From: Punctularia strigosozonata HHB-11173 SS5
Taxonomy: Eukaryota > Basidiomycota > Agaricomycetes > Corticiales > Punctulariaceae
Direction of reading: 5' to 3'
Assembly: GCF_000264995.1 (NCBI RefSeq)
Contig: NW_006767445.1
Coordinates: forward strand, 857,163 to 921,162
DNA: 64,000 nucleotides
Positions 19,071 to 63,659 of the stretch are shown piece by piece (the first letter of the stretch is position 1; each line of letters starts with the position of its first letter). The notes beneath the pieces are model-generated. The model had not been told where the DNA came from. It ran no database searches and was given only the letters and a program-made list of their open reading frames with translations. Position numbers and translations under genes: made by a program.

Positions 19071-20217
19071 GGGTCAAAGGAATGTGTGCGTACAGCAATG
19101 CATCGGCGGTATATATGCATATGCGAGGTATCGTGATTTCGGGCCGATTTACTCGGAGATCAGCCGCCCGCTGTTTGGGGAGCGCCATCACTGTGCGCGC
19201 AGGTGAGTTCTCAGCCTGTTGAGAAGCAGTGCTGGATGCGTGCAGCCCAACCCGGGAGAGGAGACGGCGTGAAAGAACCGCGAATACGAGAGTTGGGTCA
19301 AGACGATCAAGACTGGCATCTAGATGGATACAAGGTGAAGAAATATCCGGTGCTAAGCTGTATGTGCCGACTGATATTCGATGACATCGGACAGCGAACA
19401 GTTGGGCGCATCACGAAGGAATAGGGACAGAGATTACTCGATTAACCTGGTCAGACCACGGCCTGCGTGAGGCGGTTCCAGAAGGTTATTAGTGTGGTGA
19501 TGGATCATCGTTGAATCGATGCAGGTCAACTGAACAAGCCAATGCTCTTGACGGTTCGCCGAGTCGAGCACAAGTCAGCGTGAGGAACAGAGACTCCAAT
19601 ACAGATCTCGGGAGCGGTAGACACGCAATAAGCAGAGAAAATGACGCGGCCAAAAGATTGATCATTCATAGCACTGTTGACCTCAGACATTGGGGGCGTG
19701 CTTCGCCTGCGCGACTGGTGCCAGTGAGCGCAGAGGATAGGGACGGTCCGCCACAATACAAACATACACATACAAATACATGCAATGTTGGCGACGTCAT
19801 TGATATTTTTGCGATAACTGGTGTACTAACCGAGTATTATGTGTCGACGACCTCGACAAGCGACTTTGGATTCTGGTCGATTTCAATGGCGTTGCGCTCA
19901 CTACTGCGAGATGCTGGCTATTTTCAGCATTTCAGGCTCGCTGATTGAATACTCTCATGTTGGAGTGCGTGCGTACTCAGGTGACGAAGACCGGACCTCC
20001 TATACATATAGCCCAGCGCTTGCTCAGCCCTTTATCTCAGCCCCGTTTGACCCACGTCGACTAAAAAATCCGATAAACAGTCCTCATGTCGACGAAATCC
20101 ATTGGATCTTGTCCGACCACCCGGCCGTCACCGAGTGCAGGTAACGGCCGGTTCAGCAGACTGACACTGGTCTCCCTTGGTCTTATCAGCGCCATCGGGG
20201 CTTTGTTCTTGCTCAAC
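19071..20217. other. Intergenic between CNH gene and Old Yellow Enzyme
   Basis: Divergent promoter region. An ATG at 20086 lies in frame with the enzyme and would add 44 residues including a hydrophobic stretch (LTLVSLGLISAIGALFLL); I prefer the start at 20218 but a membrane-anchored form cannot be excluded. Confidence 0.4.
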
Positions 20218-21618
<1,401 letters not shown>

Positions 21619-24776: not shown

Positions 24777-30853
<6,077 letters not shown>

Positions 30854-31784: not shown

Positions 31785-31872
31785 GGCCATATAGTGTAGT
31801 GGTTTATCACTCGGGATTTTGACGCTTCGCCATTGATTTCCCGTAACCCAGGTTCGAACCCTGGTATGGCCT
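31785..31872 (+). tRNA. tRNA-Gln (UUG) with 15-17 nt intron
   Basis: The acceptor stem GGCCATA (31785-31791) pairs with TATGGCC (31865-31871). The D arm is AGTGTAGTGG-type, the anticodon stem is CGGGA/TCCCG, and the loop carries TTG; the T arm is CAGG-TTCGAAC-CCTG. Extra bases after the anticodon form the intron at the usual 37/38 site. The body matches eukaryotic tRNA-Gln, not Glu. Confidence 0.93.
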
Positions 31873-33526: not shown

Positions 33527-34471
33527 ATGCGACCCGGGACGGCGCAGTTCAGCAAATTCGGCGACGCCGTCGCGCGCTTCGCGTCGAGCTCCGCGCGCAT
33601 GTCGTCCCTGGCGGGCACCGCGTCGCACCACAACGGCTATGTCTTCCTTCACAGCAGGGTACCGCCATCGAACCGGTCGTTCCCGGCCCGACCGACGTCG
33701 CCGCTACAGCGCGCGCTGACGTTGCAGCTCTTCCCCGTCGGTGTAACCGTGAACTGGGCGTGGTCCGACGGGGAGCACGGAGGACCGTGGCGCGTGCATC
33801 GCTCAAGGACGACCGTGTTAGACGGCGCGAAGGAGCCGGAGGAGGGATACTTCGCCACGGCGTTCAGCGCGCGGAACGGGGTGCTGGAGTTGCCCGAGGT
33901 GACGTTGAAGAACGTGAAATGGGTTGCGCAGGCGCTTCGAGAGCATGTTACGTCGCCAACGCCGACGGGAAAAGACACGCGGGACCCCAGAATCTACCTG
34001 TACGTCTGCACGCACGGGACGCGGGACTGTAGATGCGGCGACATGGGCGTCGCTGTCCTCCGCGGTTTGCGGGAAGAGATCTCGAAACGCGGTGTCGCTG
34101 ACCGGGTGTCCGTGGCGGAGGTGGCGCATGTTGGCGGTCACAAGTGCGTTGCCACTCTCGTCCTCACCCCACAGACCCTTGTTCTGACGACCACGATCCG
34201 TAGGTACGCGGCGAATGTCCTCGTGTACCCACGAGGTGACTGGTCAGTACAGTGTCGATCATCAATTTGACTTGGTATTGATGGCCTCATCAGGCTTGCG
34301 GACGTGTCTGTGGAAGACGTCCCCGGGATCCTGAACCGCATCCTTGATAGCCCTCCACACGCGTCGCCGGACGACCCGCCATTATGTCCCCAACATTGGC
34401 GTGGGCGGATGGGGCTTGCTAAGGAGGCCCAGCTCGCGCTGTATGCTCGATATCTCCAGTCATCTAATTGA
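33527..34471 (+). CDS. Sucraseferredoxin-like (Apd1/Aim32) thioredoxin-like Fe-S protein
   Basis: Three exons (33527-34143, 34204-34242, 34294-34471) join to 277 residues. The thioredoxin-like ferredoxin fold is marked by CTHGTRDCRCGDMG and HVGGHKYAANVLVYPRGDW. In Apd1 the C-x-C pair and the H-x3-H pair bind a [2Fe-2S] cluster; both are visible here (DCRCGD and HVGGH). The first 25 residues (MRPGTAQFSKFGDAVARFAS...) are basic and Ser/Ala-rich, like a mitochondrial presequence, which would place it nearer Aim32 than cytosolic Apd1; that is inference. Intron 1 (60 nt) is a multiple of three without a stop, so retention would stay in frame but break up the H-x3-H region. Exon 2 is only 39 nt. 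Confidence 0.9.
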
Positions 34472-39176: not shown

Positions 39177-42100
39177 TTATTGCAGACAAACGGCCTTCTT
39201 CAGGATCGCCCTGATCCCCCGCTTGCCCTTGGTCATCTTCGTTTTGCCATCCCCATCCGTGGAGATACCGCCGAGCGTCGACGTGTCCCAATTCGACTTC
39301 TCCTTGACTTTTTCGTCGGCCGACTCCGCCGACGCACTCGTGAAGCTCGCGGGCGCAAGCGTGGGAGCGATCGCCACCACGGCGTACTCTGCTAAAGACA
39401 AGCCTGCCGAGTCGTTCGTGGCGAGATTAGGGATCTGCAACGCGTGGCGTCAATACCTTCCCAAGCATCCGAGAATGCATAGCACGCACCTCTTGTATGG
39501 GGTTGACGACGTCCGACCCGCCAATGCTCTGCACGGGTGCCCATACGCCCACTTTGTTGTTCACGAGGATCGTCCAGGCGGCTTGCTGAAGCGACGTATC
39601 GTTCAATCGTTCGCCGGCATAAGCTTGGAGCTTCATATACCACTATAAACAGTCCTGAGCATGCTAAGCGCAAGCAATCGAGTATCATGCATACCTGGGT
39701 GAAACCCCCACTGTTGAAGTTCTGGCCGTACTTGGCGATCTTGCTGTGCCGCTCAGTCAGAAGGAGACCACCGGTACGTGAGCACAATCGCTTACTCTGC
39801 AGCAGATGCGTTGTAGTAGCGACAAAAGTCAACCCAGACGGCGTCGAACTTGGGCACTTGGTCGCCGATGAGGTCCATCAGCTCAATGAGCATTTCTCCG
39901 CCCCTACCTCCATTGGTCGGTATGCATGACAAGTCAGAACAAAAGTGGGAATGCTAACCCGAATACCATCGACAAGTGGTACCTGGGTCACATTGCGTTA
40001 CTCTCGATCTACCGCTAAGACTCCGGAGAATACACTCACGTTGCGGTGAGCGAGCCACCGAGCGGGGTGAGATGAGCAGTGGCAGGGTCCCACCCGACAG
40101 CAGCCGTGTATCCTTGGAATAGTCCGTATTGAAAGCCTGCAATATCATTCTGTTGACTGGATGGTCAGTTCCGTACTGAACCGTCAAACGAGCGCACTCG
40201 CCATCCCAGTCTTCATCCGGTCCAGCCACTTGGCGTCGTTCGTGCGCTCCCACTTGACGAACCAATTCCCGCACAGCGCCGTCCAGTCCGGGCCTATGCG
40301 CAGCCGCCCGGGCGTCGTGAACGGGAAGCCGGTGTCGACCTTGCGCAGAGGTTCCCAGGTGACGACGGTCTGATCGGCCTGGAGCGAGAAGTCCATGAGG
40401 TCGCCGATGAGCTCGTCTGTCGTGAGATAGTAAAACGGGCGCTTGAGCGTCGAGGCGGACATGCGCGTCTCCTTGGCACCGTCGCCCCATTGCGTGACAT
40501 GGTGACGAGAACCTGGGTTGAAGGGAACATCAGAGAGGTGAACGGAAGAGGATAGGTGACAATCACCTAGACCAGCGAAGGGGCCGATGTGGTGGAAGTC
40601 GACCTCGGAGAGGTGGCGCGTCATTGCGTGCGCGAGCTTGAAGACGTCTGCGCGGCCGGTACGGAGGAAAGACATCCATAGCCACAGATCGGTGCCCAGC
40701 TCCGCATTGTCCCAAGCCTACGTCCAGACATATCGATTATCTGTTCTTCAACGCGCCTCGGGAAAATGCAACGTACATAGCCCCCGACATCGTACCTCCA
40801 CACGTGTCGCGTCTGATCATACGTGTGCATGACGTCGCCGTAATTCCAGAAGCCGTACCACTGCCTCTGCTCGACTTCTTGGACGTAAAAGTCCAAGAGA
40901 GCTGACTTGCGCGCTTCGACGGCGGCGAGGGTGGCATTAGACGTGTCAGGCACATTCCAGCGTCCACCGAAGAGATGCATCGAGGCGTAGAACTCAGGCG
41001 ATGCTACGAGCTGGGTGGTTGCGACCTGTGCATTTCACAGCCTCATGAGTCTAGCGTTCGATGGACAAGCTAGAAGAGCTGACGTTGTCCTTGCCGAGGG
41101 TCGCCACACTGTCCCTGCTGGGAACTGCTGGTAGGATTTGCAGCGTCACTTCGTACGAACGTCCAACGCCCGTCGGGTTAGGGTCTGGATCGCCCACATC
41201 CTCTGTGGTCCGCATTTATCAGCCAAGCATCAAAAGGTTCGGCTACGAGCATCCCACCGTACGTCAGGTCCAGGCCATGAGCAACGGTGTCGTAGCTCCT
41301 CATGTCCATAGCCGGCGCCTTCGGCGAGTACGCCCACAGCGTAACTGTCGCATCGTCCGTGTTCCCAGTCCCCCCGTTATTCTGCGAGTCACCGCCCGCG
41401 CTGCGAACGTCGATGCTCCTGGGAGCGCCCTGCCAGAAGTCCTTGAAGGCGAAGAGCACGCCGCCCGCCGACGCGCCACCAAGGAACCCGACGCCCGACG
41501 CACGCGTGCCGGACGCGGCGGCGGAGTTGCCCGTGGGCGACGAGAGGAACGTCACTTTCCGGCCTGCGTTCGTCCTGGGATATCGCGGCTTTCCGTCAGC
41601 ATGCGTGCTCGGAGACGACCTTCTGGAGGTGGGAGGAAAGACCTGCCTCTTGGAAATCTCGAAGTGTTCGCTGCTCAGTTGATCCAAGCTGAAGTCGGCC
41701 CATACCGGGAGCATACCGACCTCGTTCTGCACTGTCGCGGGCCACGTCGACGAGTCGGGTACAGGCTGACCATTGAACTGCGGTGCGAGCACGGCGGCGG
41801 TGGCGTCGACGCGCAGGCCGGAGAGGACGCGGACAGGCTCGGCGAAGAGCCCTCCGGTGGCGGTGGAAAAGAGAACGTGGCGCGAGTAGAGCGGGTCGGA
41901 GAGCGGCACGGCGAATTGGAGGCCCTGAATGCGAAGGAAGGTGATGAGAGATGCTAAACGAGGCGGAAGAAGAAGCGAAAAGTACGGACTATGCCTTTGA
42001 TGAAGTCTGCGTTCTGGTCGCCGTCGTAAATGAAGAAATGGACGAGGCGCACGGCGGTGGATCCTGCGGTAACGTAGAAGCGGGAAATGAAGGGAAGGAA

Positions 42101-43067
42101 TGCTTTGTGTCCTCCTCCAGAGTACTTTCCGGTGATCTAAAGCAGGGAATCGTCAGACTGAACATCGAAAATCGCAGTTCCTTGTGAAGCTGACCTTGAT
42201 TACAGCTCGCACAGGCCCGTCTTGTTCCACCGTCACAGCTTCGATATTCCCGGTTAATGCTTGAACAGACGGTTTCGACCCCGCAAGTTCGGGCTCATCT
42301 GGCGCACTCTGGACATGAGCGACGAGCGTCCCCGAGTGGGCTTTTTGAGACGAGGAGAGGGCGAGTGTTTGTATCAGGGTGGAGCCGTGTTTGTTGAAGG
42401 TAGCTAGGAAAGAGAACAGCACCGGTCAGTGGACAAGCCTATCGGCAGTGATATGCTCGGCACACCTGTGAATGATCCAGCGGTAACTGTGATAGTCGAG
42501 CCAGTCTGCTTGACGCTGACAGGGTCAGCTGGCTCCGTGGGTGTTCCCGGCGCAACGTGAACGGAGTCCGTCAGCCCAGAGTCGGCTGCAAGCGCATGTC
42601 CGGTCCACTTCAGCGACCCGTCGGGCCAGTATGCGAGCGGCCAGCTCTGCAGCGGTATCCCTCCCGAAGAGGTCGTCGCTGCTAACGCGGTCGTGCGGTC
42701 AATCTCGCCCTGCGACCACGGGAGGCCAAACGCCGTCCCAGCGGGCGTACTGGATGGAGCAGATCCATCGAGCCAGTGAAGGTCGACGCCTTCGTCTGCG
42801 CGACGCGTGGGTCCCGCGCAACTGTGGCGGAGCATGTGGTGTCTTGAACTTGGCTGATCGGACTCCGAGAGGGTCGAATGTGGACGCATATATTCGACGC
42901 GCTCCTCTTATGTGTCGAGCGGAAGTGGGATGCTTCTCAGTCTCGGCTTCAAAACGCGAATGCATGGGAGTGGCCCCTCGATAAGTCTGCCATCGAAGGC
43001 GCGTACCCGCGTGCTGTACTCTGAGCAGAGTAAGAGCGGGAAGCGTGATCAGCCGCCGTGATGGCAT
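39177..43067 (-). CDS. PL26-type exo-rhamnogalacturonan lyase (PcRGLX/YetA-like)
   Basis: Predicted secreted pectin-degrading enzyme that removes disaccharides from the rhamnogalacturonan I backbone (known for Penicillium PcRGLX). About sixteen exons. Exon 1 (43067-43007) encodes a signal-like peptide (MPSRRLITLPALTLLRVQHA); after a 212-nt intron the mature part starts DEGVDLHWLDGSAP. Then GLPWSQGEI, PLQSWPLAYWPDGSLKWTGHA, HKAFLPFISRFYVTAGS, LVHFFIYDGDQNADFIKG, FKDFWQGAPRSIDVR, YDTVAHGL, FGGRWNVPD, QRQWYGFWNYGDVMHTYD, AWDNAELGTDLWLWMSFLRTG, SRHHVTQWGDGAKETRMS, RPFYYLTTDELIGDLMD and LCGNWFVKWERTNDAKWLDR follow in family order to a stop at 39177. One intron (40150-40201) begins GCGAGT, a GC-AG intron. 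A 54-nt intron near 41620 is less sure. The long first intron could hide a small exon. Confidence 0.85.
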
Positions 43068-43755: not shown

Positions 43756-45122
43756 ATGCATCACCAGTGGCTCTGGCTTGTTATATCTGTAGCGTCTTTA
43801 GGACGAGCTACGCCCCTGGAACCCGCCCGGGGACACAACTCGGGGCCGCCCAAGCCGGACTGCAGCTTCGTGCTGAATTATTGGGCGTTCGACCGTACGC
43901 ACTCACAGAATATCACTCTTCGGTTCCCCCTTTGACGCATCTTCTGCAGTATGCCCCCTTCTAGACCCCAAAGTCAAGCCATTCGTGCTCCAATGGGACG
44001 AAGAGACACCACCCACAGTCACGACCACCAATTACCGCATCTCCATCTCTAAACCTCTGATGAAGGACCCAACGCTCCCCGCGCACGAGCAATGCCCAGA
44101 GGGGACGTGGATATGCAAAACTGGTGAGTCCTGTTATCCCCGATGGACGCATATATGCACCCATATGCCGACGGACGTTCGAGTTTTCAGTGACGAACCG
44201 GCGGCCAGACCACCGTTCGGAGCCACCACGGATCGTTCAGATCATACCTGTCGCGGGCACGCTCGCGCTGCACCCAGACCACGACCATGATGACGTAGGA
44301 AACGCGAAGCATTTCACCAGTCTGAACGTAACGGTATCGAAGCACGCCTCTGGCTCGGAAGACGCTGAACGTGGTACGCCCGCCCGCCTTGTCAAGCTCT
44401 CCGAGCCATATCTAATCGAAGCGTCAGGCACGCTCGCGATGACGTTTCATGGCGGGCTGTACGTTACCCGTCCTCAGCGCGCGCGCTTCTCCCTGATCTG
44501 CGACCCCTCCGCGGAGGGCATCATTCCTAACTTCCTCTCCGTCACCGAGAAAGTAGGGGACGTAACAACGCACGATTTCAGCTGGAAAACGAAGCACGCC
44601 TGTGGGAAGCGCCTCGAGAGCGCCACGAGCACCCTGAACGCACCCCCGTCGCCGACACAGGCGGAAGGAGATGAGGAGAAAGCGGGAGAAGGCGAAGAGC
44701 GGCCGATATACGATCCCGATCCGCAGGCACAACCTCCCCATCTCCCCCTGGGGAACTGGATACCGACCGCGGCCAGCGTACTTTTCTGCATGGCGTTTGC
44801 GGCGTACGCGTCCTCACGTATTCCTCTGGGAGCCAAGATGCGCATACGGAACGCGCTTGGGACATTCGCGGTACCGAGCCTGTCCTCCTCGGTCGTGCGA
44901 GGGCAGAGATGGATAGCTGCTCGGCCGTGGACACGAAATCTAAGGTGGAACGAAGACGATACCGTCTATCTGATTCTCGACGACGAGCTTGAGGACGAGG
45001 AACCGGATGTCGTCGTCTGGGGGGAAGAAGGCGATGGCGGGGAGGAGATCCCGTTAACGCCGAGCCCAAGAAAAGCTGGCTTTGGCGAGGTAGGTTATGG
45101 GGCCACGAGACCTTGGAGATGA
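43756..45122 (+). CDS. Atg27-like MRH-domain membrane protein
   Basis: Three exons (43756-43894, 43950-44123, 44191-45122; introns 55 and 67 nt) give 414 residues. Layout: signal peptide (MHHQWLWLVISVASLGRATP), a mannose-6-phosphate-receptor-like lumenal domain with spaced cysteines (PDCSFVLNYWAFDLCPLL, HEQCPEGTWICKT, FSLICDPSAEG, KHACG), one transmembrane helix (WIPTAASVLFCMAFAAYASS) and a cytosolic tail ending in an acidic region and GYGATRPW. Atg27 family proteins cycle through Golgi and endosomes and help deliver Atg9 membranes. The tail here is longer than in yeast and the match is weaker in the tail; another MRH sorting receptor is an alternative. Confidence 0.82.
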
Positions 45123-46333: not shown

Positions 46334-47909
46334 TTAGGTTTCTGCGTGTATTGTGATCGTTTGCCTGGAGAGGAGCGAAGTGGGGGCAAGGCCTTTGGCG
46401 ACCAAGGCCAGTTTCCAGCCGAGGTTGACGGCATCTTGAACCCCCGAATTGAGACCCTGCATTGAAGCGTGGGTTGAGCGCATAGATCTAGCTTAGTGAG
46501 AGGCTGTCACGTACCTGGCCGCCAGTCGGAGGGTGAACGTGAGCGGCATCTGAAAATACAGCATTGTTGAGCACATACGTCGCCTAGAGCGTGCACGATC
46601 TGACCTCCGGCCACGAATACTCTTCCCTCGCTGAATCGGTCGACCATACGACTACTCGGTCTACACGTTCAACGGGGTGAGGGTTCGCGCTATCGAGCCA
46701 GTGCGGAAAGAATAACCTGTACTCCGAAATCCATTCGACCTTGGCCAGTTTGATGGCAGGGTCGGATATGATGTCGTGGGCGACTCGTAGGAACTCTTCA
46801 GGGTGCGCCGCAAGATACGTCGTATCGATGCCATCACCGACTATTGTGGCTTGCGCGAGATCTGGGGTGTCGAACTCCGTCGGTCGCACCATCAGACTGA
46901 TTGGCATCGCCATGAACAATTAAGCTCAGAAATCTGGGAAACATGCAGCTACACACCATCGTTCGCGGGGATGGCCGAACCAGTATTGGAATCGCGTTGC
47001 CTGAGAGGTGTGTATGAGCAAACGTTCTGCAGACTGTGACGAATGAAGAACCAACGTCTGTCCAGGGCTGCTGCATGCGCACGTCGGCAACGACCCACCG
47101 CCCCGCATGCTGGTCGCCATGGAACGATAGACCAAGGAGCTTGCGAACAGCGCCTATTCGACGATTGGTATCAATACGGCGCTCATATCAGATGATCGGA
47201 TACGGCTTGCCTCTGGCTCCGTCAGAACCTACGACCCAGTCGACGTCAGATTTTTCGACGACCTCCATCCCGTCCTCGCCGGTCTTGGCGAGGCTGACGG
47301 TGACCTTGTCGGGATGCTGCTCTAGCCCGCGCAGCGCCGTGTTCGTCTCGACGTGAACACCATGATCCTTCGCTAACCTATCCGCAAGGAGCGCGCACAA
47401 CCGCGACTGGCCGATCATGACTCCCTTCGCCTGAAAAAAATAGCACGACTGATCGGCCAACGTGCAGCCCGCGCCATGCTACGAGGACTCACCATAGGGC
47501 GAGATGGACTCGGCTCCATCTGCGTCCTGGGAGCGACCGCCTCCGGCACAGCCTGACCGAGCTTGTACATCCGCGCGGGAGCAAGGTCTTGCGCGATCTC
47601 CAGGACATCTTCCAGAACACCTGCGAAGGAGAGCAACTCCTGGGTCCTCACCTGCAAGTTCTGTAAGGGAACGTTCTCGAGGGAGCTTCATACCCGAAGT
47701 CCCGTGCCTGGATGCCGGATCCTCTTTGCCCTAGATGTGTGGTCTTGTCCTTCTCGATGATGCGGAATGGAACGCCGTTGCGAGCGAGAATCAAACCTGT
47801 GGGTCCAGCTCCGACCTGTAAGAGTTATTTGAGCGTGATACTTAAGTGGAACACGGATATATGCGTGCACAATGAGGATAGATGGAGACTGAGAACGTCG
47901 TTCGGCCAT
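46334..47909 (-). pseudogene. FAD-dependent monooxygenase (PHBH/phenol hydroxylase type), 3'-truncated
   Basis: Starts MAERRSQSPSILIVGAGPTGLI with the GxGxxG dinucleotide motif, then NGVPFRIIEKD, RTQELLSFAGVLEDV, AKGVMIGQSRLCALLADRLA, DWVVGSDGARG (the DG motif) and RVFVAGDAAHVHPPTGGQG (the GD motif), [19 protein letters not shown]. It stops at 46334-46336 shortly after LAPTSLLS, where family members have about 150-200 more residues. Splicing after GSGIQ and around 46920-47040 could not be made convincing, so the gene is probably dead. One intron (47154-47210) has a GCAAGC donor (GC-AG). A second, more decayed copy lies in the same orientation at 55309-56240. Confidence 0.7.
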
Positions 47910-48982
47910 ATTGCAAACCAAGTGGCGAGATAAGCTGAACTTTCGAGTAGCAGGAGATATACGGTAGATGGAACGTGTTGTGTACGGGTGAAGGATCCTG
48001 GGCTTTATATGCGTCCAGCAGCCAGCGATGCGTGGGGTCGACATCGTCGCCTAAGAGCTAGGCTCTCTCCGTCTTCCGTCCTGTCGTGACATTGGAGTGT
48101 ATCTGCAGCACGGCGAAGTGGGGTGGAACTTTTACCATGCACTGCATTTTTTGGCGGGGCTCCCCGCGGACATCTTTGACCACTGCGGAGAACTTTTACC
48201 ACCTGCAGATACACTCTATTCCAGGGGATCGACTATTCTTGAGTACGTTGTCCAGGCAGTGCTGTGCGTCAGCCTTCGGCACGGACGATGAACACGAAAC
48301 CGTTGGGATCGGTCGCGTCGTCGCGGCAGGAGGCAAGTTTACGCGTCTGCGTTCCGCGGCGAAGCGTCCGACGTTCGAGGCGGACGCGTCGTCGCGGCAG
48401 AAATAACCCACATTTTTCCGAACCTCCATATCCCACTGGACACACCTTGGTCGGATGTCACCAGAAGGAACGTTCCAATGGGAGAAAAATCCTCGACACC
48501 TGACGCGTCTACGCGAAGCCTACAAGTAAGCACCGCTCGACAGATCTAGCTTACACAAAAATCCTTCAACGCGACACATTAATAAATGGAAGCATGGCAT
48601 CCCCAAGTTCGATGTATCAAACTGTAGCGCAAGACTGAAGCGCATCAGGAATCGACGTTTAAATCACGAGAGTAACCACCCTCCAACTGCGTGTCGATTG
48701 CCAGCGACATGGTTGCACGAGCAGGCGATGTCATTGATCTGAATCTTACGATTCACTACCGACGGAAAGTGAAGTCCGCATGAGGTTTCCGTCCGTGCGT
48801 TTGATTCCGCCTGTGCTCCAGCAGGGAAATACATACGTGCGGCATCTGAGAAAGGGAGGCGACGTCAATGGCATATTCACGCAGACTTCATCGATCGAGT
48901 ACATGCCTCCAGCCATGAAGCCCTTCCTTCTTAAACCTTGTTGACCATCCTGTGACTTGTCCTGGCGGAGGACAAGCATCGT
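47910..48982. other. Intergenic, small direct repeat
   Basis: No gene recognised. A 16-nt direct repeat, CGCGTCGTCGCGGCAG, is at 48314-48329 and 48385-48400. Confidence 0.5.
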
Positions 48983-49348
48983 CTACACAAACCCCCGAAT
49001 TCCGGTGAGAGGGCACGCCGCGATAGGCTCTGCTGGCGCGATGAGGTTGCAACCATCCCTCGGAGCTCCGCCCTCGCTGGGGCGGTACGGGTGCATCTTC
49101 ATCAGGGGGCGGTACAACCTCTGGAGCCCCCGCAGGGCACCGATGGACGACTGTAACCTTGACTTCGGGCTGAAATAAATCTCATCAGTAGACTGCAAAG
49201 ACGCCGTGCGTGTTTTCAGAAACGAACCTGGACGCCCACGCCCCTCGGTCCCGGCCGACTCATTGCGCTTCTTCTCGATGATGCACATAGGCAGTCCGTC
49301 TTGCGAGAGCATAATAGCCGACAGCAGACCTACGGGCCCTCCTCTCAC
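48983..49348 (-). pseudogene. Relic of a second FAD monooxygenase N-terminus
   Basis: The minus strand reads GGPVGLLSAIMLSQDGLPMC and IIEKKRNESAGTEGRG, the FAD-binding start of a group A flavin monooxygenase, then after a disrupted stretch ALRGLQRLYRPLMKMHPYRP and a stop. The two halves are not in a single workable frame and the rest of the gene is absent. Confidence 0.6.
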
Positions 49349-51276
49349 CTTCGTGCAGATGTTACGGTTAGCGAAACGGGATCAAGGTTGACAATTGGGT
49401 GACGACACACAAGTGACATCGACGTTATTCTGTTTTATATCTCATCACATATTGTGCGGATAGCAGAGCATCGAGAGATGCGCGTAACTTACAGCAATCC
49501 GGTATCGGCATAACAGTCGGACCTACTGCCCGATCCTGCTTCGTGAAGGCGGAAGTAACGTTGAGCACCGTATCATAACACACCGACCGACGTCAATGGC
49601 AGCCCTGGTTCGCCATATGCTCCCCCATACCTCCCGCCTCCGCATTGCGGAATCAAAAGTGATATGTTGCGTAGTCGGTAGAGGTAAAGCCGCAGTCGCG
49701 GCATTAAGGATAGTTCTGTGCTGCCTGACAAACTTGAAGTGTGTCGGAAGAAGTGGCGGCTGTCGGCTCCTTCCCTCCTTCTCTTTGCCCTTGCCGTCGA
49801 CATCGACAGCGGCGCGAGGAACTTCGGTGGGTATGGCAAGCGGAGAAGGGGTGAGCTGGGGCAAAGTATGGATCAGGATTGCCATCGTGCACGCCCAAGT
49901 TGACAGCTTGCTCCCACATCGCTCGCGCTCAGACTGCGAGTCTCGCGCTGGTGGTATGGAAGACGTCTCGATGAGCTTCGACATCTCGGTCTGCTGCTGC
50001 ATGCGCATGCAACCAACGTTCTCGGGGCGACGCGAGCTCCTACCGACTGCGACGTTGCTCGGCCTCGGCAAGAGCCTGCTACGTCAGCCAGACAATCTGC
50101 TGGAGATCGTATTCGAGCTCGACGTCGTTCTTCTGCGAGGTCGGCGGGCTCTTGTCGTTGCCGCTGTTGACGCCGGAGATCATCCTGCGCAAGCTGGCGT
50201 TTGAAGACTTCGCTGCGGGCACATCTTGATTCTGAGGTTGATCCTCGGTGTGAAAGGCGACCTCGGAGCGTTCGCGGACGCCGGGTTGCTGCGATATCAT
50301 CACGTGCCCGTGGCGCAGTGCTCGGACTGAAGTCTGCTGCAGTGCTTTGCGCGTTCATGTTCATCTCATCTCAACACAACAAATCATAAATCGGCCAGCA
50401 TCCACCGCCTCCGTTGAATCTGTACTCGCGGGCCCGTGCATCAAGGCTCGACGCTCAGCAGTGACATCACCAAAGCGATGCTGAGGTGCCGGTGGACGTC
50501 CGACGCCCCCAGTCCTCATCTCCAATGTGTGCCCCTGCGCGCACGATCAGGCGAAGATCATAAATCAAGCAAGCAGTAGTCCTATACTGAAACGCTGCAT
50601 CGCGATCAAGGAGTGTTTGTATTGTGGCACCGACGGGTACTCCGGACGCCCGATAGGGTTGAATCACCGGGAAAATCATCTTTGGCTAACCTTACCCCTT
50701 TCTTCTATCTCGCGGGCGAAAGCTCTGTGAACGTGTTTGGAAAACCGACAGCATAGTTGTCTCTGATGGGTCACCCAACATAGACTCATGATCACATTCT
50801 CTTGTTGGCCGGCAGCGTGGTGTGGAAGGCGTACGAAATATCTGTTGAATTCGACGTTTCGGGTTAGTAATGACTCTGATCTGAAGTTCCGGAGAGCTCT
50901 CAGTTCCTTCAAGGCGGACAAGACGCGAGTTTAATTAGTGCGTCGGCTTCATGAAACATGGGACATCGACGCGCCAGTGTCTCTGCAGAGCTGCATCACA
51001 CCACACCGTCAGGCATGCTATGATGATTAGAGCTATTTCTACGAGCGCGAGGCTGTGATCCCCGCGCATCGCACCGGCAAATCATATACAAAGGAACAGT
51101 CCGGTCCGTCGCTTCAGCGAGCAAGGAGACCAACATGCAAGTCCAAGTCGAAGTCGAAGCGGATACGACAACCGGTATGTCCAGTCAACTTTCTCTGCCG
51201 TGGTGCCCGACTGGCGTTTATAATGGCTCATTCCCTTGACCCTTCGCAGAACCTATCACAGTGGGCCGAATAGTTC
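49349..51276. other. Intergenic with possible hypothetical-gene remnant
   Basis: The minus strand at 50303-50079 has a 74-codon hydrophilic frame (QPQNQDVPAAKSS, DVELEYDLQQIVWL) that ends at a TAG. The following frame (QALAEAEQRRSR) also hits TAG before continuing (ELASPRERW). I cannot decide between spliced gene and remnant. Upstream of 51277 lies the promoter of the TPR-CHAT gene. Confidence 0.3.
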
Positions 51277-54200
51277 ATGGTCAAGATGGTCGCCCCATTA
51301 ATGGTGGACAAAAGATCTGCGAATGCGCAAGTAAATCCGTTTTGCTGTGCTGCTTTGAATGTTATCCAACCGCACCTTGCAGCAGCTACGTCATCTGAGG
51401 CGAACGAATGCTACAACATAGCACTCCAACTCCATCAAAAATTCTGCCAGAACAGCGATCTCGACGCCGCAAAGCAGTGCATCGAGCACTATGAGGCCCT
51501 CCTATTGGAGTCACAGGGAACCACTTCCTTCGGCGCGACAATCCCAAATTCGAAACTGGACGTTTCGATCGACCCCCGCCCAAAGCTATATCACATACTC
51601 ATTCGGCTGGCTGATCTATATTTGGATCGCTATAGGCACAATTACGAGCAATGCGATCTGGAGCTTGCGGTAAAATATGGGCAAGAAGCCCTGTCTATGT
51701 GCCGCACAGCTGGGATACGTTGCCCTACAGTACTTGGGCTATTCGCCAACATCTTGAATAACAACGCAGAGGACGTTTCCCGGAAAGAAGATCGGATCGT
51801 TGCAGAGTCGCTCTGCAGAGAAGCCATCTCACTCTGCGCAACGGGAACCTACTTGGCAGCAACTATTCGCCTTAATCTGGCATGGACTCTGAGAAGGTTA
51901 TCCACAATTAACGGGCCTCATACTTTGATCAACGAAGCAGTCGACATCCAGCGACAGGCCTTGGTTGACCTGCCTCCGTCTCATTGTTACGATCAACATC
52001 GACACCTGCGATTCCTAGGTTTGTGTCTATTCTACCGACACCAAATTTTTGGAAGACCAGAAGATTTGGATGAATGCCTTGATGTTTCCGCGCACGCCGT
52101 GCACTTATGTCCAGAGATGCACATTGATCGGTGCAAGACAGTATATGGGATGCTCTGGTCGCTATATCTGAAGAGTTTCCGCTCTGGCGCTATCAATGAG
52201 CTCAACAAAGCGATTGAACTTGGACTGAACACTCTCAAAGAAGTTTCCGATGCTGGATTTGCCCACGTCGATCTCCTCAGTGTGGTAGCAGATCTGCTCG
52301 CCCTTCGCCATCAGCTGGCTCCATCCGATGGGCGCGACCTCGAAAGGTCAGTCACTCTGTACCGGGAAGTTTTGCGACTATTCCCTCCCAACCGAGCAGA
52401 CTATTGGCTGTACGTGGACTGCCTGGCGGTCGGATTGCGTCTGCAGTACCACTGGACCGGAGAGATAAGTCATCTCGAAGAATCTATTCAACTCGGGCGT
52501 TCCATCATCGGTTCAATGCCAACTACCCACCCTCAGCGATTTGTTCCCGCTCGCAATCTGGCGCATTCACTGATGCTCCGCTTCAACGAGACAAGGCGCA
52601 TCTCTGATCTCGATGAAGCCATCAAATGGGATCGTATGGCCCTGGCGAGCAGTGGGACCTCACATGTGTTATATCCGGAGATTTCTGCTCAAGCTGTCTC
52701 CCGTCTTTGCATGTTATTTGACGCTCGGGGCTCATTCGAGGCTTTGGAAGAAGCGATTACCCTCGGCAACACCGTCCTGGACACGATGGCTTCCGACAGT
52801 GTTCAACGCAGCGATGTTATCCTCGAGCTGTCAAAAGCTCTGTTACGCCGCGGGAGACATCAAGGGAACGTCGCGGACATCGACCGCTCCATTTCGGAGC
52901 TAGCACGTATCAAGGAAGTCATGCTTCAGCGAACAGACGGTCCTGAGCTTCTGAGCACCCTCGCCGACTGTCATATCGTCAGATTCCGCTTCAATCGCAG
53001 CTACAAAGACGCGAACGATGCCTTGGAGATTATCACTGGCTTATTGGATAAGCTGCCTCCTGGGCGTCCCGAGAGGTTTCGGTGCCTCGTAGGTGCCGCA
53101 GAACTCCACATGGAGCTAGGAACATCTTATCGGAGTATCCAAGCTGCACTCTCGCATTTAGCCCGTGCTCTATCCGACGAACACCGGGACGTTCGTTCTC
53201 GAATTGAAGGAGCACGACGCATACTTGATATCGCTGTGTCGCAATATCAGGATATCGTCCACTCTGAGGTCGCAGCACATCGCCAACTGCTGGATATCTT
53301 TGCTCTTGTGGTGGGGCATCTGCCCCGAGTGGCTTTCTTCGGTCTTCATCTTCATACCCGACTCCAGTCGTTGGCTATCGGCCAGAGCATCGCTCTCACC
53401 GGCGCATCTCACGCGCTCAACATCGGCTTACCTGACAAAGCATTGGAAATCCTTGAGCAGGGCCGTGCGGTCTTCTGGACCCATGCACTACGCTTGCGCT
53501 CTCCGTTCGATGCAGCGCCCAAGGAGATCGGAGATAGGTTGTCGATCCTTGCCCGACAGCTGGATAAAGTATACGATAAATCGTCTACGGGAGAGAACCT
53601 GGGCGTTGTCGAAGCGGAGATTGCTCGCAGAAGAGGTCTGATAGAAGAATTCAACGCCCTGCTCAACCAAGTCCGCAAACTACCTGGACTGAACAGATTT
53701 CTGCTGCACGACGAGTTTACGACGTTGAGAAAGGCCTCCGAGAGAGGTCCGGTCGTAGTGCTGGTATCCAGTGCGCTGGGGAGCCACGCTGTCCTTCTCA
53801 AGCAGGGGGGCGATTGTGTCAGCATTCCTATCGAGCATCTTCCTGACACTTGGCTCGCACATTCCGGCACGGAGTGGCGATCAATCATCGTGGAGGCGAG
53901 GGCGGAGATGCGCGACTGCAGAAAGATGGAAAAATCGAAAATCCCGAAGGCTCGAAGGACGGCTGCCGACGAAATCTTGCGCCAGTTATGGATTGAGGTG
54001 GTGAGACCAGTCCTGAATGCTCTAGGGCTCGAAGTATGAGATCACCCTTTACATGATCTTGTATAAGGCTCACCAGTTGCTTCTAGCCCTCCGAAGGTCG
54101 AAACCGTCCTCGCATATGGTGGTGCCCTACTGGAAACTTTGCTCACTTACCAATCCATGCAGCCGGTGCTGGCGGAGAGTGGTGCTCGGATTACGTCGTC

Positions 54201-55016
54201 TCCTCCTACATACCGACCATCGGGTCCCTTCTTGCTGCCAGAAACGCGTATTCTCCCATCCTCAAGGAGGACGTTCACGCGCTCGTCGCTGCAACGCCTC
54301 GGTCGAGCATGTCGCAGTGGAGCGACCTCATCAACACGCGCGAAGAAGCGAGAGCGATCCGTGCCGTCTTACCAAGCGGATCCACGATGGAGCTGTCTCC
54401 CGCAGACGACGCTTGCATTGAGGGCGGAAACGGGATCACGGCGAAGACGCTGCTAAAGCTGCTCCCACAGACGAATATCCTGCACCTCGCGTGCCATGGC
54501 CATCAAGATCTGGAGAATCCGTTGCAGAGCGGATTCATTCTGCGTGACGAGAAACTCACGATCGAACGACTCATGCCTGTACCCCTCCCTCGCGCGTTCA
54601 TGGCATTCTTGAGTGCTTGCGAAACAGCCAAAGGTGACTTCGTGAGTACCAATACCAGTCGAAATCATGATGCCATTGAACAACGTGCCCATGCAGAATC
54701 AGCCTGATCAGGTGGTCCATCTCGCCGCCGCCATGTTCTTCGCAGGATTCAAAAGCGTCATCGCTACGCTTTGGTTAGTCCCACTTTGCAGCTACTCATT
54801 TCTATGATACCGACTTACAACCGACTGTCAAGGTCCATGGCGGACGCGGACGGGCCGGAGATAGCTCGATCTGTATACAAGAAGATATTCAGCGGCAAAT
54901 TGGATCACATCGACCCCGATGACATCGCGTACGCCCTCGACGAGGCCGTCACGAAACTGCGAACCATCCAGCCTGAGCCGCTCCGATGGGCACCGTATAT
55001 ACACCTAGGGATTTGA
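51277..55016 (+). CDS. TPR-CHAT protein, predicted caspase-like protease
   Basis: Four exons (51277-54033, 54087-54641, 54697-54773, 54833-55016; introns 53-59 nt) give 1,190 residues. Residues about 20-650 are helical repeats of TPR type (CDLELAVKYGQEALS, SDLDEAIKWDRMALA, GLPDKALEILEQGRA). The C-terminal CHAT domain begins around residue 780 (GPVVVLVSSALGSHAVLL), continues IWWCPTGNFAHLPIHAAG, then ILHLACHGHQDLENPLQSG and AFMAFLSACETAKGD, and ends FAGFKSVIATLWSMADADG and RWAPYIHLGI. The catalytic His (in ACHGH) and Cys (in SACET) are present, so the peptidase fold looks active. In bacteria TPR-CHAT proteases act in defence and cell death; in mushrooms the family is large and not understood. 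Partner and substrate are unknown. Flanked on both sides by decayed monooxygenase copies. Confidence 0.93.
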
Positions 55017-55308
55017 GCGTGCGCCAATATATGTCATTGGTTCGAAATGTACAACGGAGGAGGCCGTGAGTACAGGCCTACAATGAGCGATACCGGTTGC
55101 TCTGGACTCCGTCCTTGGCACGTACTCCTCTCCGAAGACGAGGTTATCCACGACGGCCTCGCTCCATCGGATTCGCGGATCAATTTCTCACATGTATACC
55201 GTGCCGTCGTGTTTGAACATCTTCGTCTCTTCGAACCTCATCATGGTCCAGAAGCCGCCCGCGAGCTGCAGGACCTCGATGACGGGTAGGCACCCCTCGG
55301 TGCAGCTG

Positions 55309-56361
55309 GAGAGCAGCGAAATCGGGACAATGCGTTTTGCGACCAAGGCGAGGTGAATGGCGTCTTGAACTCCCGAGTCGAGGCCCTAAGATTATGGGCA
55401 TATTGGGCGGATCACTCTGACGTGGTTAAGATATGTCGCTGACGTGGTCTCCAATGGGAGGATGAACGTGAACAGCATCTGAGAAAATGGCATTGTTGAG
55501 AATATACAGTCACTCGAGCGTGCGCAATCTGACCTCCACGAACACCCTCCCCTCGCTGAGCGCTCGACTATACGACTGCTCGTTCTGCAGGTCGAGAAAA
55601 TGAGACATCATGCCATACAACCGGTATCGGATGACTGACATATACTCGCGCAATCCAATACACTTTCGCAAGCCGTCAGGGTCGGATGTGATCTTCAGGA
55701 CGCGCCGAGAGAGGCGTTGACCGACCGTCATAACCTGCACAAGATCTGGACAGGTTCGAATGCTGTCGGTCGCACTACCGCACTGATAGGCATCACGAGT
55801 AAGCTCAAAGATCTAGGAAACACTGGAGCCATGCACCAAGGTTCGCGGGCATGTCCGAACCAGTATTGGGATCGCGCTGCCCGGGAGGTGTGTATTACCA
55901 AACGGTTTGCAGGCTACGATGAATGAAGAACCAACGTCTATCCAGGGCTGCTGCGTGCGCAGATCGGCGACTCCCCACTGTCCTACATGCCGGTCGTCAT
56001 GGAACGACAGACTAAGGATGTTGCGGATGGTGCCTCTTGTTCGCATTTTACTCGAGATCCCCGCAGCGCCGCGTTCGTCTCGATGTGAACACCATAATCC
56101 TTTCGCTAATCTATCCGCAAGCATCGCGCGCAGCCGGGACTGGCCGATGATCCCCCCATTCGCGTGAGGAGTAGGGATGCCTATCAGCCAAAGTGTAGTA
56201 GTCGTGCCATGCTCCGAGAACTTACAAGAGGAAGGGATATGAAGCTTTCTTTGCACCGTACGAGTACAGCGGTCTTCTGATGATGGGCGGGGTCTGTTAC
56301 AAAATGCGATGTCACACCTGAGTTCAAGTATTAGCGCGTTTGTATTACGACCCTTGGCCAC
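55309..56361 (-). pseudogene. Decayed paralog of the FAD monooxygenase
   Basis: The DNA parallels 46380-47480: for example IGQSRLRAMLADRLAKG, LSLSFHDDRHVGQWGVADLR and TQQPWIDVGSSF on the minus strand match the copy at 47.0-47.4 kb, and the stretch at 55311-55385 matches 46378-46450. Frames are broken in several places and neither end of the gene is preserved. Same orientation as the 46.3-47.9 kb copy, so the two bracket the TPR-CHAT gene as direct repeats. Confidence 0.7.
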
Positions 56362-56493
56362 GGCGAGAGTGAATCCATCGTCTATCGTCTTCGCTGGCGC
56401 TGGTGGCGGGAGATGAGTTGGACGAGGGGCTGTGCAGCTTGACCGGGCGCGCTGCCGCCTGGTGCCGCTGCTGTGCAGTCAGCATTGGCACGA

Positions 56494-56683
56494 CCCACTG
56501 GGTACAGTGGGTGAAAAGCACCCTTTGACTTTGGCCGACATAAGTATTTACTAATACAGTGGGTGATTATATACAATAGACCATACCGTGAGTGATCCAA
56601 AGCAATCATCCACATGGCCTCAATCAACCACATACCGACCAGACTGTGGGTGAATGGTCGATATCCCCCATCACGTGGGTGGT
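56494..56683. promoter_or_regulatory. Palindrome and CAGTGGGTGA-like repeats upstream of iminopeptidase
   Basis: A perfect inverted repeat, ACCCACTG-GGTA-CAGTGGGT, is at 56494-56513. CAGTGGGTGA occurs at 56506-56515 and 56558-56567, with variants at 56586-56595, 56643-56653 and 56674-56683. All lie 190-380 bp before the ATG at 56870, as expected of clustered transcription-factor sites. Confidence 0.45.
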
Positions 56684-56869: not shown

Positions 56870-57918
56870 ATGTCTTCACCGCTCGCCGTGGAGGGGCGGG
56901 TCGACTTCAAGCCCGCCGGAGCTGGCAAATATTGTCACACATGGTACAAAATATTTGGGGATCTCCCCGCACGCGTATATCGCCCCCTGATAGTTATCCA
57001 CGGCGGTCCAGGTTCGTCATCTTCGTTTTTTCACCGCGATAGATCATGACAGATGTTGACTCGCGAAACGCAAATCACAGGAGCCGTGCACCAATACCTC
57101 CTCCCAATCGCAGACCTATCCATCGCGCAATCCATGCCCGTCATCTTCTACGATCAAATCGGCACTGGAAACAGCACGCACCTATCCGAACTCGAGGGCA
57201 ACCCGTCCTTCTGGACCGAGTCGCTCTTCCTTGCCGAGCTGCAAAATCTCATCGACAAGCTCGGGATCCAGGACGATTATGCCATCCTGGGCCACTCGTG
57301 GGGCGGAATGCTCGGGGCACGACACGCGGCCGGCCGCCCACCGGGGCTGAAGCGGCTCGTCCTCGCCAACTGCACGACGAGCATGAATTCGTGGCAGCAG
57401 TCAGTCGCCGCGCTCCGCTCGGGCCTACCGCAAGAGGTCCAGGACACGCTACGGAAGCACGAAGAAGACGACACGATCGACTCTGCAGAGTATCGGACAG
57501 CTGTCGCTGAGTACCGCCGACGCCACGTATGCCGAATCGATCCCATGCCTGATGAGCTCGTCAACACGCTCGCGGAAATCAGAAAGGATCCTACGGTCTG
57601 CGTTACGATGCAAGCACCGTCCTCATCGTGTGAACATATGCTCATGCTGACGGAAGTATATAATCCAGGCGCGGAAAGGTACCGTTCCGCGTCACGGGCG
57701 TCTTGAAGGACTACTCCGTCGAGAAAGATATCGCCGGTATCACCGCCCCTACTCTTCTCATCAATGGACAATACGACGAAGCTCAAGATGACACGATCCA
57801 AGGATTTTTTGCGTCTATTCCCAGCGTGAGCTGGACGAAATTCGTCAATTCAAGTCATACACCTCACCTCGAGGAGCGCGAACGTTTTTTGCGTGTCATT
57901 GGTGCGTTCTTATCATAG
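56870..57918 (+). CDS. Proline iminopeptidase (alpha/beta hydrolase, S33)
   Basis: Removes N-terminal proline from peptides. Three exons (56870-57011, 57081-57618, 57669-57918) give 309 residues. The oxyanion HGGPG motif is split by intron 1 (VIHGGPG). Then IFYDQIGTGNST and the nucleophile elbow GHSWGGMLGARHA with the Ser; the acid is in INGQYDEAQD and the base in NSSHTPHLEE. Exon 2 to 3 joins at a GTCCTC donor, which is weak but restores the frame. An ATG at 56756 lies in frame upstream, but the conserved start fits 56870. No signal peptide; cytosolic. Confidence 0.92.
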
Positions 57919-60261: not shown

Positions 60262-61731
60262 ACGCCATGCCGCGCCGCGACCGAATCGACAGACAGCACG
60301 CTGCTGTCGCTGTGATGCATGTGCTGCTAAGTAAACTGGACCAGGTATCTTGACGATCTCCGTTGTTTGATATTTCTTCTTGTATATCAACATCCCATAG
60401 TTGAACGATGGTGCTCCGCTCATATGCTTGCTCTAGGCAGCCTTAGTCCCCCCGGCGCTGCAGACGTTCAAGGGGTGCCACCCCTGGATTCGGTCTTTGG
60501 TTCCTGTCGTCGGCCGCGCCGTGAGTAGCCATTCTTCCTACAAGCACGAAATGGTCAGCGTCCGAGACTTGAGACCATTAGAGGGCGTCAGGTATTTAGT
60601 AAAGAGACTTCGTTGGATGTGTTTGGGTGGGTTACATGTAAACGCTGAGATCCGGGGAGACGCGCGGAGCGTGATACCGCAACCGGCCCGGATCTGGAAC
60701 GCGAGATTCCTCTGAGTTTATGTATGACTGTTGAGCGCACGAAGACTCCCAGTCCTGTCTTCCCCTCATGTTTACCGTACCCCGGGACTAGTTGCCTCGG
60801 TAATCATCGTCGCGGCCGCCTCAGAGGCTGTTTACTCTAGATCTCTTCCGCCAACGACGCGAGACGCGTTTCCCCTCGTCTCTTGCTACTCCTCGCCGGC
60901 ACCGTTCCTTGCTCCGCATGTCCCGCGTACTTCGCTCGGCCCCCGAACCTCTGCCCTCGTCCCCAACTAGCCCCCCGCAACGACTGGCAGGTGATCGTCG
61001 TTCGAACTTCTTTCGATCAATATCGCCTGCAACGGCTTTCAACCGAGGACGCGACACCGCCGAGCGGTGGTTTGCGTTCCGCAGCCAAGCTAACGCCATT
61101 TCAGCCGGTCACGAGTCCGAATAACAAGGCGGTAGCACGGGCTTTTCGCTCCGATTCCGACGCTGTCGACTGCACGAGTGGCGTACGTGCAGCGCAGCAA
61201 CCGGCTGTTCCGCTACCGGGACCTCGTCGGCAATCTACCTACCTACCGAACCCTGACCTGGTCGATGGGTTCGTCTTTGGTCCCCCTCGCTCGGTTGTGC
61301 TGGCGGTGGTTGCGAAGGCCCACAAGAGAGCTGGGATGTCCTTGGATGTCCTTCGCAGGAGCACCCATCACAGACGGGTGGATACAGCCAGCCTGAATTT
61401 GGCATCCATCATCATGCGGCTTGTGCCCTCTTGCATTCCCGTCTGTGCCGCATGACCGAAAAGCAGACCTGATGGACGAGTATGGTGCTCGGTAAGGTTG
61501 GGAATGAATAAATGAATGACGCCTGGGGAAAGATCTATCGTCCGCACGTTTTCGATGAGGGACCCCATGGGGTCACGGCGCCAGCGCCCTTCTGCGAAGC
61601 CGTTCCTGATGCGCTCCGCTCTGCAGAATCGCCCTATTAAACCGGAGCCATGGGCGCTTCCTGATCCTTAGAGCGGTCGCATTCCACCCCCCTCTTTTAT
61701 CCCTCGCACCTTCTCCTCTCGCCCTACTACA
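60262..61731. other. Intergenic, no gene recognised
   Basis: About 1.5 kb between the EBP-like gene and the transporter. Open frames such as 60883-61455 (plus) show no domain. Its 3' part is the transporter promoter. Confidence 0.5.
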
Positions 61732-63659
61732 ATGCCTGGCGGTGGAGCCGTATCCTCAGGTGCCGGCGTTGGCGAGCACATCCAGACCAAGTCCAAGCTC
61801 GCCGGTGTCCTCATCGTACGTCGTTCGCTCTTGGCATCGATAATATGTTGCATGCCTCGTCTCTTCATACCTTGCATCAGGTCGCATTTGCCGCGTTTGG
61901 AGGCGTGCTCTATGGCTACGACACCGGCACCATCTCCGGCATCAAGGAGATGCACAACTGGCTCTGCACGTTCGGTACCGATCACGGCGACGGCACTTGC
62001 ACGATAGACTCCTCCCGGGAGTCGCTCGTCGTCTCCATCCTCTCCGCCGGCACCTTCTTCGGAGCCTTGCTCGGTGCCCCCATGGCCGACATCGTCGGGC
62101 GCAAGTGGGGCATCGTCTTCTCGTGCTTGGTCTTCTCCATCGGTGTCGCCATGCAGACCGCTGCGACTCAAATCGCGCTCTTCGTCGTCGGCCGCGTCTT
62201 CGCCGGCCTCGGCGTCGGCCTCATCTCGACCCTCGTGCCCATGTACCAGTCCGAGTGGTGAGCCGACTTCATTAACTCCCCTGTCTTCCGCTCCGCGCCC
62301 GAATGCTGACGTTTTCTTCTCTCCGGACCCCTCAGTGCCCCAAAGTGGATCCGCGGCGCCGTCGTGTCCGGCTACCAATGGGCCATCACGATCGGCCTCC
62401 TCCTCGCCGCCATCGTCAACAACGCCACCAAAGGCCGCCCGGACCACTCTTCCTACCGCATCCCGATCGCCATCCAGTTCGTCTTCGCCGCCGTCCTCTC
62501 CGCCGGCCTCGCCTTCCTCCCCGAGTCTCCGCGCTGGCTCGTCAAAAAGGGCCGCGACGCCGACGCCGCCGCCGCCCTCGGCCGCCTCACCTCCGTCCCC
62601 GCCTCCGACGCCGCCGTCCAACTCGAGATCGCCGACATCCGCGCCAACCTCGACGCGGAGACCGCGCTCGGCGAGTCGTCCTACCTCGATTGCTTCCGCG
62701 GCTCGGCCGGAAACAAGATCGGCCTCCGCACCTTCACCGGCATCGCCCTCCAGGCGCTCCAGCAGCTCACCGGCATCAACTTCATCTTCTACTACGGCAC
62801 CACGTTCTTCCAGAACTCGGGGATCAAGGACCCGTTCCTGATCAGCATCGCGACCAACGTCGTCAACGTCGGCATGACCGTGCCCGGGATGTGGGGCGTC
62901 GAGCGCTTCGGGCGACGCCGCCTGCTCCTCATCGGCGCGATCGGCATGTGCATCTGCGAATACCTCGTCGCCATCATCGGCGTCACCGTCTCCGTCAACG
63001 ACCACGCCGGCCAGCAAGCGCTCATCGCGCTCGTCTGCATCTACATCGTAAACGGCTATTTATTCCGCCTGCGCCGCTTTTTGTTTTTTTCGTTTCCGCT
63101 CACTTTTGGTTTTTTTTTTTTTTCTTGTCTAGGCCTTCTTCGCGTCTACATGGGGACCGATCGCCTGGGTCGTCATCGGCGAGATCTACCCGCTCAACAT
63201 CCGCGCCAAAGCCCTCTCCATGGCCGCCGCCTCGAACTGGCTCTGGAACTTCGGCATCGGCTACGCCACGCCCTACCTCGTCAACGACGAACCCGGTTCC
63301 GCCGGCCTAGGCTCCAAGGTGTTCTTCATCTGGGGATCGACCTGCCTGTGCTGCATCATCTTCACCTACTTCTGCATCCCCGAGGTAAATGAAACAGTTT
63401 TAAACCCGAGCTCCCCATTGCGCCTTTTACGAGGTTTCGAGTGATCTTTTTTTTCGCTGACGACTCGCCCGCTTTTTTTCTCCAGACCAAAGGCCTCTCT
63501 CTGGAGCAAGTCGATATCCTGTATCAGAACACTACTCCGCTCCGCTCCATCGCCTACCGCAAGCGGATCTTCGAGAACGACGTTCACGCGTCGGATCCTC
63601 ACGCGCTGGAGAAGATCCGCGACGAGCAGCACAACGAGCACGCCGACGAGAAGGTCTAA
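61732..63659 (+). CDS. MFS sugar transporter (hexose transporter type)
   Basis: Proton- or facilitated sugar uptake at the plasma membrane. Five exons (61732-61815, 61881-62257, 62336-63047, 63133-63384, 63486-63659) give 532 residues, the family length, with twelve membrane segments expected. Sugar-porter signatures: FGGVLYGYDTGTISGI in helix 1, GRKWGI in loop 2-3, GRVFAGLGVGLISTLVPMYQSEC in helix 4, LPESPRWLVKKGR, QQLTGINFIFYYG in helix 7, WGVERFGRRRLL, WVVIGEIYPLNIRAKA in helix 10, and PETKGLSLEQVD (split by intron 4) after helix 12. Exon 3 uses strongly C-ending codons, suggesting high expression. Intron 3 has a 14-nt poly-T before the acceptor. Confidence 0.96.

Follow-up and report, generated by a model that had tools for sequence, protein, structure and literature searches.

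What might a mushroom do with a caspase-like protease that carries a long repeat arm, and which part of such a protein changes under selection? The question is raised by a gene within a 64,000-nucleotide stretch of Punctularia strigosozonata HHB-11173 SS5 (contig NW_006767445.1, positions 857,163 to 921,162), referred to here as the window. The gene is predicted to encode a tetratricopeptide repeat (TPR) superhelix joined to a CHAT protease domain. Among its young paralogs, diversifying selection acts at the ligand-face positions of the repeats, in a manner similar to the HNWD proteins of Podospora anserina, and this is confined to repeats 4-8.

The gene model was derived by comparison of the copies. 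It places six putative exons on the + strand, from 51135 to 55016, encoding 1,195 amino acids:

51135-51174, + strand: exon 1, with the start codon at 51135
51250-51330, + strand: exon 2
51383-54033, + strand: exon 3, residues 41-924, containing the TPR superhelix, a linker and the first CHAT residues
51850-52641, + strand: the fast-evolving TPR stretch, residues 197-460, within exon 3
54087-54641, + strand: exon 4, the CHAT core including the CHGH and SACET motifs
54697-54773, + strand: exon 5, CHAT
54833-55016, + strand: exon 6, the end of CHAT and the stop codon

The young subfamily consists of eight genes on four contigs, namely that of the window and those labelled C14, C9 and C19. The seven copies outside the window are:

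C14:862769: L021 (stretch shared with the window, 862769-867659)
C14:795891: L018, with an assembly gap near its end
C14:735499: L022
C9:92438-96381: L019
C14:814049: L029, cut by an assembly gap
C14:514307: L030, cut by an assembly gap
C19:239054: L024, cut by an assembly gap

The ATG at 51135 is common to four aligned copies, with a 6-nt in-frame difference, and the start and splice sites are conserved in L018, L021 and L022. In L019 the intron 1 acceptor, ahead of exon 2, is lost, and in L029 the frame changes within exon 2. The first-pass annotation had proposed a 1,190-residue protein from 51277. That model was abandoned, as its ATG, within exon 2, is not in the reading frame of the gene and the model runs on through intron 2; the frame of that model is open in L024 and L030 but lacks the Met. 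The gene is not a chance reading frame, because its CHAT part evolves at a ratio of nonsynonymous to synonymous substitution (dN/dS, or omega) of 0.27 among the young copies.

The protease domain corresponds to Pfam CHAT PF12770 across residues 904-1194, covering profile positions 2-288 of 289 (E=5.3e-36). With CHGH starting at residue 1060 and SACET at 1100, the dyad is His1061 and Cys1102. Both motifs align with those of Csx29 (E=8.5e-8) and the Craspase TPR-CHAT protein (E=0.0019). A single-sequence search of the PDB returned the TPR-CHAT entry 7zoq as the top match (E=1.9e-4), and the sequence relatives found are the Craspase proteases. From this alignment, and in keeping with the family, His1061 and Cys1102 are presumed to be the catalytic residues. 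CHAT thus appears, as read from its sequence, to be an intact caspase/separase-like Cys protease. In 30-codon segments starting at 1051, 1061, 1101, 1111 and 1121, which contain the two motifs, dN/dS is at most 0.05. The earlier reading of an intact TPR-CHAT gene with an active-looking protease is upheld: the dyad is in place and the domain constrained. Searched in full against Pfam with an E limit of 1, the protein matched nothing besides CHAT, two weak TPR families and a weak ARM family. That scan found no nucleotide-binding domain of the NOD-like receptor (NLR) type (NACHT/NB-ARC).

The Pfam TPR matches of the protein are below cut-off. The AlphaFold2 model of the arm is nonetheless a TPR superhelix, with a predicted local distance difference test score (pLDDT) of 85.6 and a predicted template modelling score of 0.81, and TPR proteins lead its structure matches. 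Weak matches to TPR-S, the Pfam TPR-Sensor family, occur in 3 of 22 TPR arms (best E=1.6e-4). In L019 (C9:90500-99500), TPR repeat 7 is lengthened in frame by an insert of about 20 residues.

Selection was tested on the eight young paralogs of this one genome. Pooled dN/dS by region was calculated by the Nei-Gojobori method, and a separate, own-written codon model was used for the M1a/M2a and M8a/M8 comparisons. Pooled dN/dS is 0.47 in residues 1-40, 0.61 in 41-300 and 0.99 in 301-460, followed by 0.37 in 461-680, 0.20 in 681-900 and 0.28 in 901-1195. For residues 41-460, M2a is preferred over M1a with twice the log-likelihood difference at 154.4 and omega of about 8 at 8.4% of sites; M8 over M8a gives 154.5. 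No preference for positive selection was found by the codon model in 461-900 (1.04) or 901-1109 (2.40). The replacement changes account for the excess in 301-460, because the synonymous rate (dS) there is not raised (0.122, compared with 0.118 in CHAT and 0.177 in 41-300). Naive empirical Bayes posteriors place 19 of the 20 sites above 0.9 in 41-460 within residues 197-460.

The variation concentrates on predicted groove positions. According to a study of TPRs by Magliery and Regan, positions 2, 5, 9, 12, 13, 33 and 34 are the most variable and belong to the concave face, and ligand contacts in HOP involve positions 2, 5, 6, 9, 12 and 13 (PMC1261162). In repeats 4-8 of the young copies, positions 2/5/9/12/13 average 3.00 different residues, compared with 1.67 for the remainder of helix A (p=0.0003). 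By position, the values are 4.8 at 12, 2.8 at both 5 and 9, 2.4 at 13 and 2.2 at 2. Positions 16 and 3, outside this set, reach 2.6 and 2.4, so not every groove position stands out. Only 3 of the 2,002 five-position sets score as high as 2/5/9/12/13, itself included, and a shift of the TPR register by 1 to 7 always lowers the value (next best 2.72). In eight more distant paralogs the groove positions are also more variable on average (1.86 against 1.30 bits), with position 0 as variable as position 12.

An omega counted without a tree, with bootstrap intervals, agrees with this pattern. For the 25 groove codons it is 2.40 (95% 1.15-5.60), with 0.85% of resamplings not exceeding 1. The other helix A codons give 1.20 (0.60-2.69), and values fall to 0.28 in 461-900. 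The first-pass annotation had predicted that variable TPRs with a conserved dyad would mark a recognition role; this signature is seen among the paralogs of one genome, rather than between strains.

The wider family was sought in the 33.57 Mb genome (32 contigs). The CHAT profile has 80 matches at 78 distinct places, which supplies the paralog count and bears out the expansion claimed earlier. This exceeds the matches of the NACHT profile, 18 of 23 being over cut-off (NB-ARC not included in the count). DUF6533, a family typical of mushroom-forming basidiomycetes, has 38 matches. The His and Cys are kept in 75 of the 76 places readable at both residues, and two places lack the His part. The exception, L048 (C14:141121-141711), has its catalytic Cys replaced by Arg and is likely inactive.

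Within 100 kb of a contig end lie 21 of 80 places (the 78 CHAT places and two gap-cut copies), against 10.7 expected (p=0.0015). Within 50 kb there are 5 of 80, against 5.5 expected, so the end enrichment is mixed. A neighbour within 50 kb is found for 31 of 80 places, against 18.0 expected (simulated maximum 34). A further fragment of the gene end, 78% identical, lies at G000:C14:804693-805112, close to other C14 copies. An open frame of 3,364 amino acids and "partial" copies were rejected as assembly gaps read as N. A second CHAT match beside L018 was judged an assembly artefact, with the same sequence repeated across an N gap.

The gene is probably a sensor protease, in which the TPR groove would bind a variable ligand and free CHAT proteolysis, with cell death as the probable outcome. 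The N-terminal superhelix would serve as the reader, the helices A of repeats 4-8 lining its groove. Contact residues that vary from copy to copy would suit a ligand varying by copy or over time. This may be a variable protein, whether made by a pathogen or virus or encountered as an allelic self/non-self partner once hyphae have fused. Binding would release the conserved Cys protease, and the freed protease would cleave a downstream protein, after which the cell would probably be killed or walled off.

Several observations weigh against this reading. Helix A of a TPR holds 14 of the 19 sites above 0.9 in 197-460 (p=0.012), which alone is a modest enrichment, and position 12 contributes a large share of the groove signal. 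The TPR register was fixed from the L7-A/G8 motif after the variable sites had been seen, although the helix ends of the model agree with it. The bootstrap interval of the tree-free omega is wide, the same five positions in repeats 2, 3 and 9-12 give an omega of 0.60 (0.22-2.44), and segment 41-180 has no selection signal. The CHAT fold was not obtained from exon 4 modelled alone, which reached pLDDT 43. With the gene masked, no recurring neighbour gene was found beyond the blocks common to L018 and L021; the comparison took in 22 loci (L009-L030) and a portion of the window, and the flanks covered were limited. The gasdermin profile PF04598 has 0 matches in the genome, a null that is uninformative because the profile had no fungal positive control. 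Outside the young group, the closest pairs of copies share 69% and 60% identity in the arm, a divergence considered too great for dN/dS, which leaves the selection test without replication in an independent subfamily. The homoplasy test also indicates strong and frequent exchange between copies, and because recombination inflates the site test, its nominal p values are too small.

This last point belongs to an explanation by artefact, in which conversion homogenises CHAT while the TPR part drifts under relaxed constraint and misleads the site tests. Between the window gene and L021, dS is indeed 0.045 in CHAT and 0.267 in 681-900. Since the copies exchange sequence, short segments were refitted with their own trees, giving 62.7 (181-320), 54.1 (321-460), 43.7 (191-270), 45.3 (271-350) and 17.5 (351-430). 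A star tree gives 151.6, and the five copies left after omission of the three gap-cut ones give 47.6. Null simulations without recombination reached at most 5.11 in 30. In 30 recombinant null replicates, whose tips were reassigned at intervals of 20 or 60 codons, the maximum was 12.91 over the whole stretch and 11.78 over a single 80-codon segment. The observed values are well above these, save 351-430, which is only somewhat above and counts with the adverse points. Relaxed drift also fits poorly with the unraised dS of 301-460, with 168 of 280 invariant columns in 181-460, and with a tree-free omega above 1 in the groove but not in helix B (0.85) or the rest of 197-400 (0.87). The artefact is accordingly regarded as unlikely.

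An ordinary role in regulated proteolysis is somewhat less improbable, though still doubtful. Here the groove would select endogenous peptides as a substrate adaptor, the copies having diverged to other substrates. The best structural matches of the arm include peptide readers, and separase appears on both match lists; the grooves of APPBP2 and KLC1 select peptides, and separase holds its substrate. New specificities after duplication can themselves give positive selection. However, 78 CHAT places, eight young genes differing at the groove and frequent exchange look more like a repertoire for recognition than like stable housekeeping. A nucleic-acid-binding antiviral arm with an IFIT-like groove, sensing viral RNA rather than protein, is very unlikely, as matches to grooves of this type arise from many TPR superhelices and the variable residues differ in chemical character. 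A selfish killer or drive element spread through duplication would suit young copies scattered across four contigs, the window's included. It is highly improbable, given that no partner gene was seen in the shared stretch besides the protease and that the dyad is so widely kept.

TPR-CHAT proteins as a kind are already known from bacteria, fungi and corals. A gasdermin of P. anserina is activated by a CHAT protease that carries TPRs, and the two genes form clusters (PMC12881547, PMC10197012). The present protein is similar in uniting TPRs and a caspase-like CHAT protease, and differs in the lack of a PF04598 match (a limited test), the large dispersed family and the hypervariable groove. The gene hetB of Aspergillus fumigatus, with one allele encoding a likewise large CHAT protein, causes heterokaryon incompatibility (PMC11138114). 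That gene is known from incompatibility between idiomorphs, whereas the variation here is among paralogs of a basidiomycete. The HNWD NLRs het-d, het-e and het-r of P. anserina have few contact-face repeat positions under diversifying selection (PMC12222747). They share with this family a few hypervariable residues on a conserved repeat scaffold, and recombination. The HNWD repeats are the WD40 of an NLR, whereas here TPRs are joined directly to the protease and no nucleotide-binding domain was found. The family would thus appear to unite a hypervariable repeat face, as in HNWD, with a direct protease, as in the P. anserina TPR-CHAT protein. Craspase TPR-CHAT/Csx29 has the same two parts with aligned His and Cys motifs, but is bacterial and RNA-guided via gRAMP/Cas7-11. 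Corals contain 276 and 304 TPR-CHAT genes, similarly spread by duplication, in an animal setting and with groove-site selection not mentioned in the accessible text (PMC12314368).

The earlier statement that the family has no assigned role is too strong for fungi, where the role is not blank because the TPR-CHAT/gasdermin pair and hetB are published. It holds for mushrooms to the extent that no paper on CHAT proteins of basidiomycetes was found in the literature searched (partial texts, incomplete journal coverage). Nor did that search turn up a description of diversifying selection specific to the groove in fungal TPR-CHAT proteases.

The surroundings of the gene are partly duplicated. The stretch at 50290-55169 (+ strand) is 91% identical to L021 over about 4.9 kb, comprising the gene with about 0.85 kb upstream and 0.15 kb downstream. 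Less is shared with other copies, and more with L018. Positions ~46800-56500 and L018 (C14:793500-802500) form a segmental duplication of the wider surroundings, including a FAD-binding remnant. This remnant-like short open reading frame (ORF), at 48983-49381 on the - strand, has a weak partial FAD_binding_3 match below cut-off (E=0.0034). A 215-nt direct repeat (46944-47158 and 55824-56038, 80% identical, 8.9 kb apart) flanks the gene and may mark an old duplication boundary. Before the gene was masked, most apparent recurring neighbours were antisense or alternative-frame ORFs of the gene itself and were rejected. Downstream neighbours are an alpha/beta hydrolase (57050-57703, + strand) and a sugar transporter (61665-63389, + strand). 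The other features of the window, the Pfam matches being from a scan of 40 other ORFs, are:

38-121 and 31785-31872, + strand: two tRNA genes
14072-14809, - strand: class II tRNA synthetase, Pfam match
20077-20892, + strand: Oxidored_FMN, Pfam match
27242-28066 and 29690-30229, + strand: two ABC transporter pieces, Pfam matches
33527-34267, + strand: Suc_Fer-like, Pfam match
41181-42152, - strand: PcRGLX-like, Pfam match
44064-45119, + strand: ATG27, Pfam match below cut-off

A broader proposal, tentative and on the doubtful side, is that the 78-place CHAT family forms the main germline-diversified receptor repertoire of this mushroom. It would couple sensor to protease without an NLR switch, with groove-coded specificity behind basidiomycete immunity and somatic incompatibility. 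A 2021 review describes the mechanisms of basidiomycete somatic incompatibility as completely unknown (PMC8229728). Specific genes and residues with the behaviour of recognition sites, linked to an intact-looking caspase-like protease, make that question testable.
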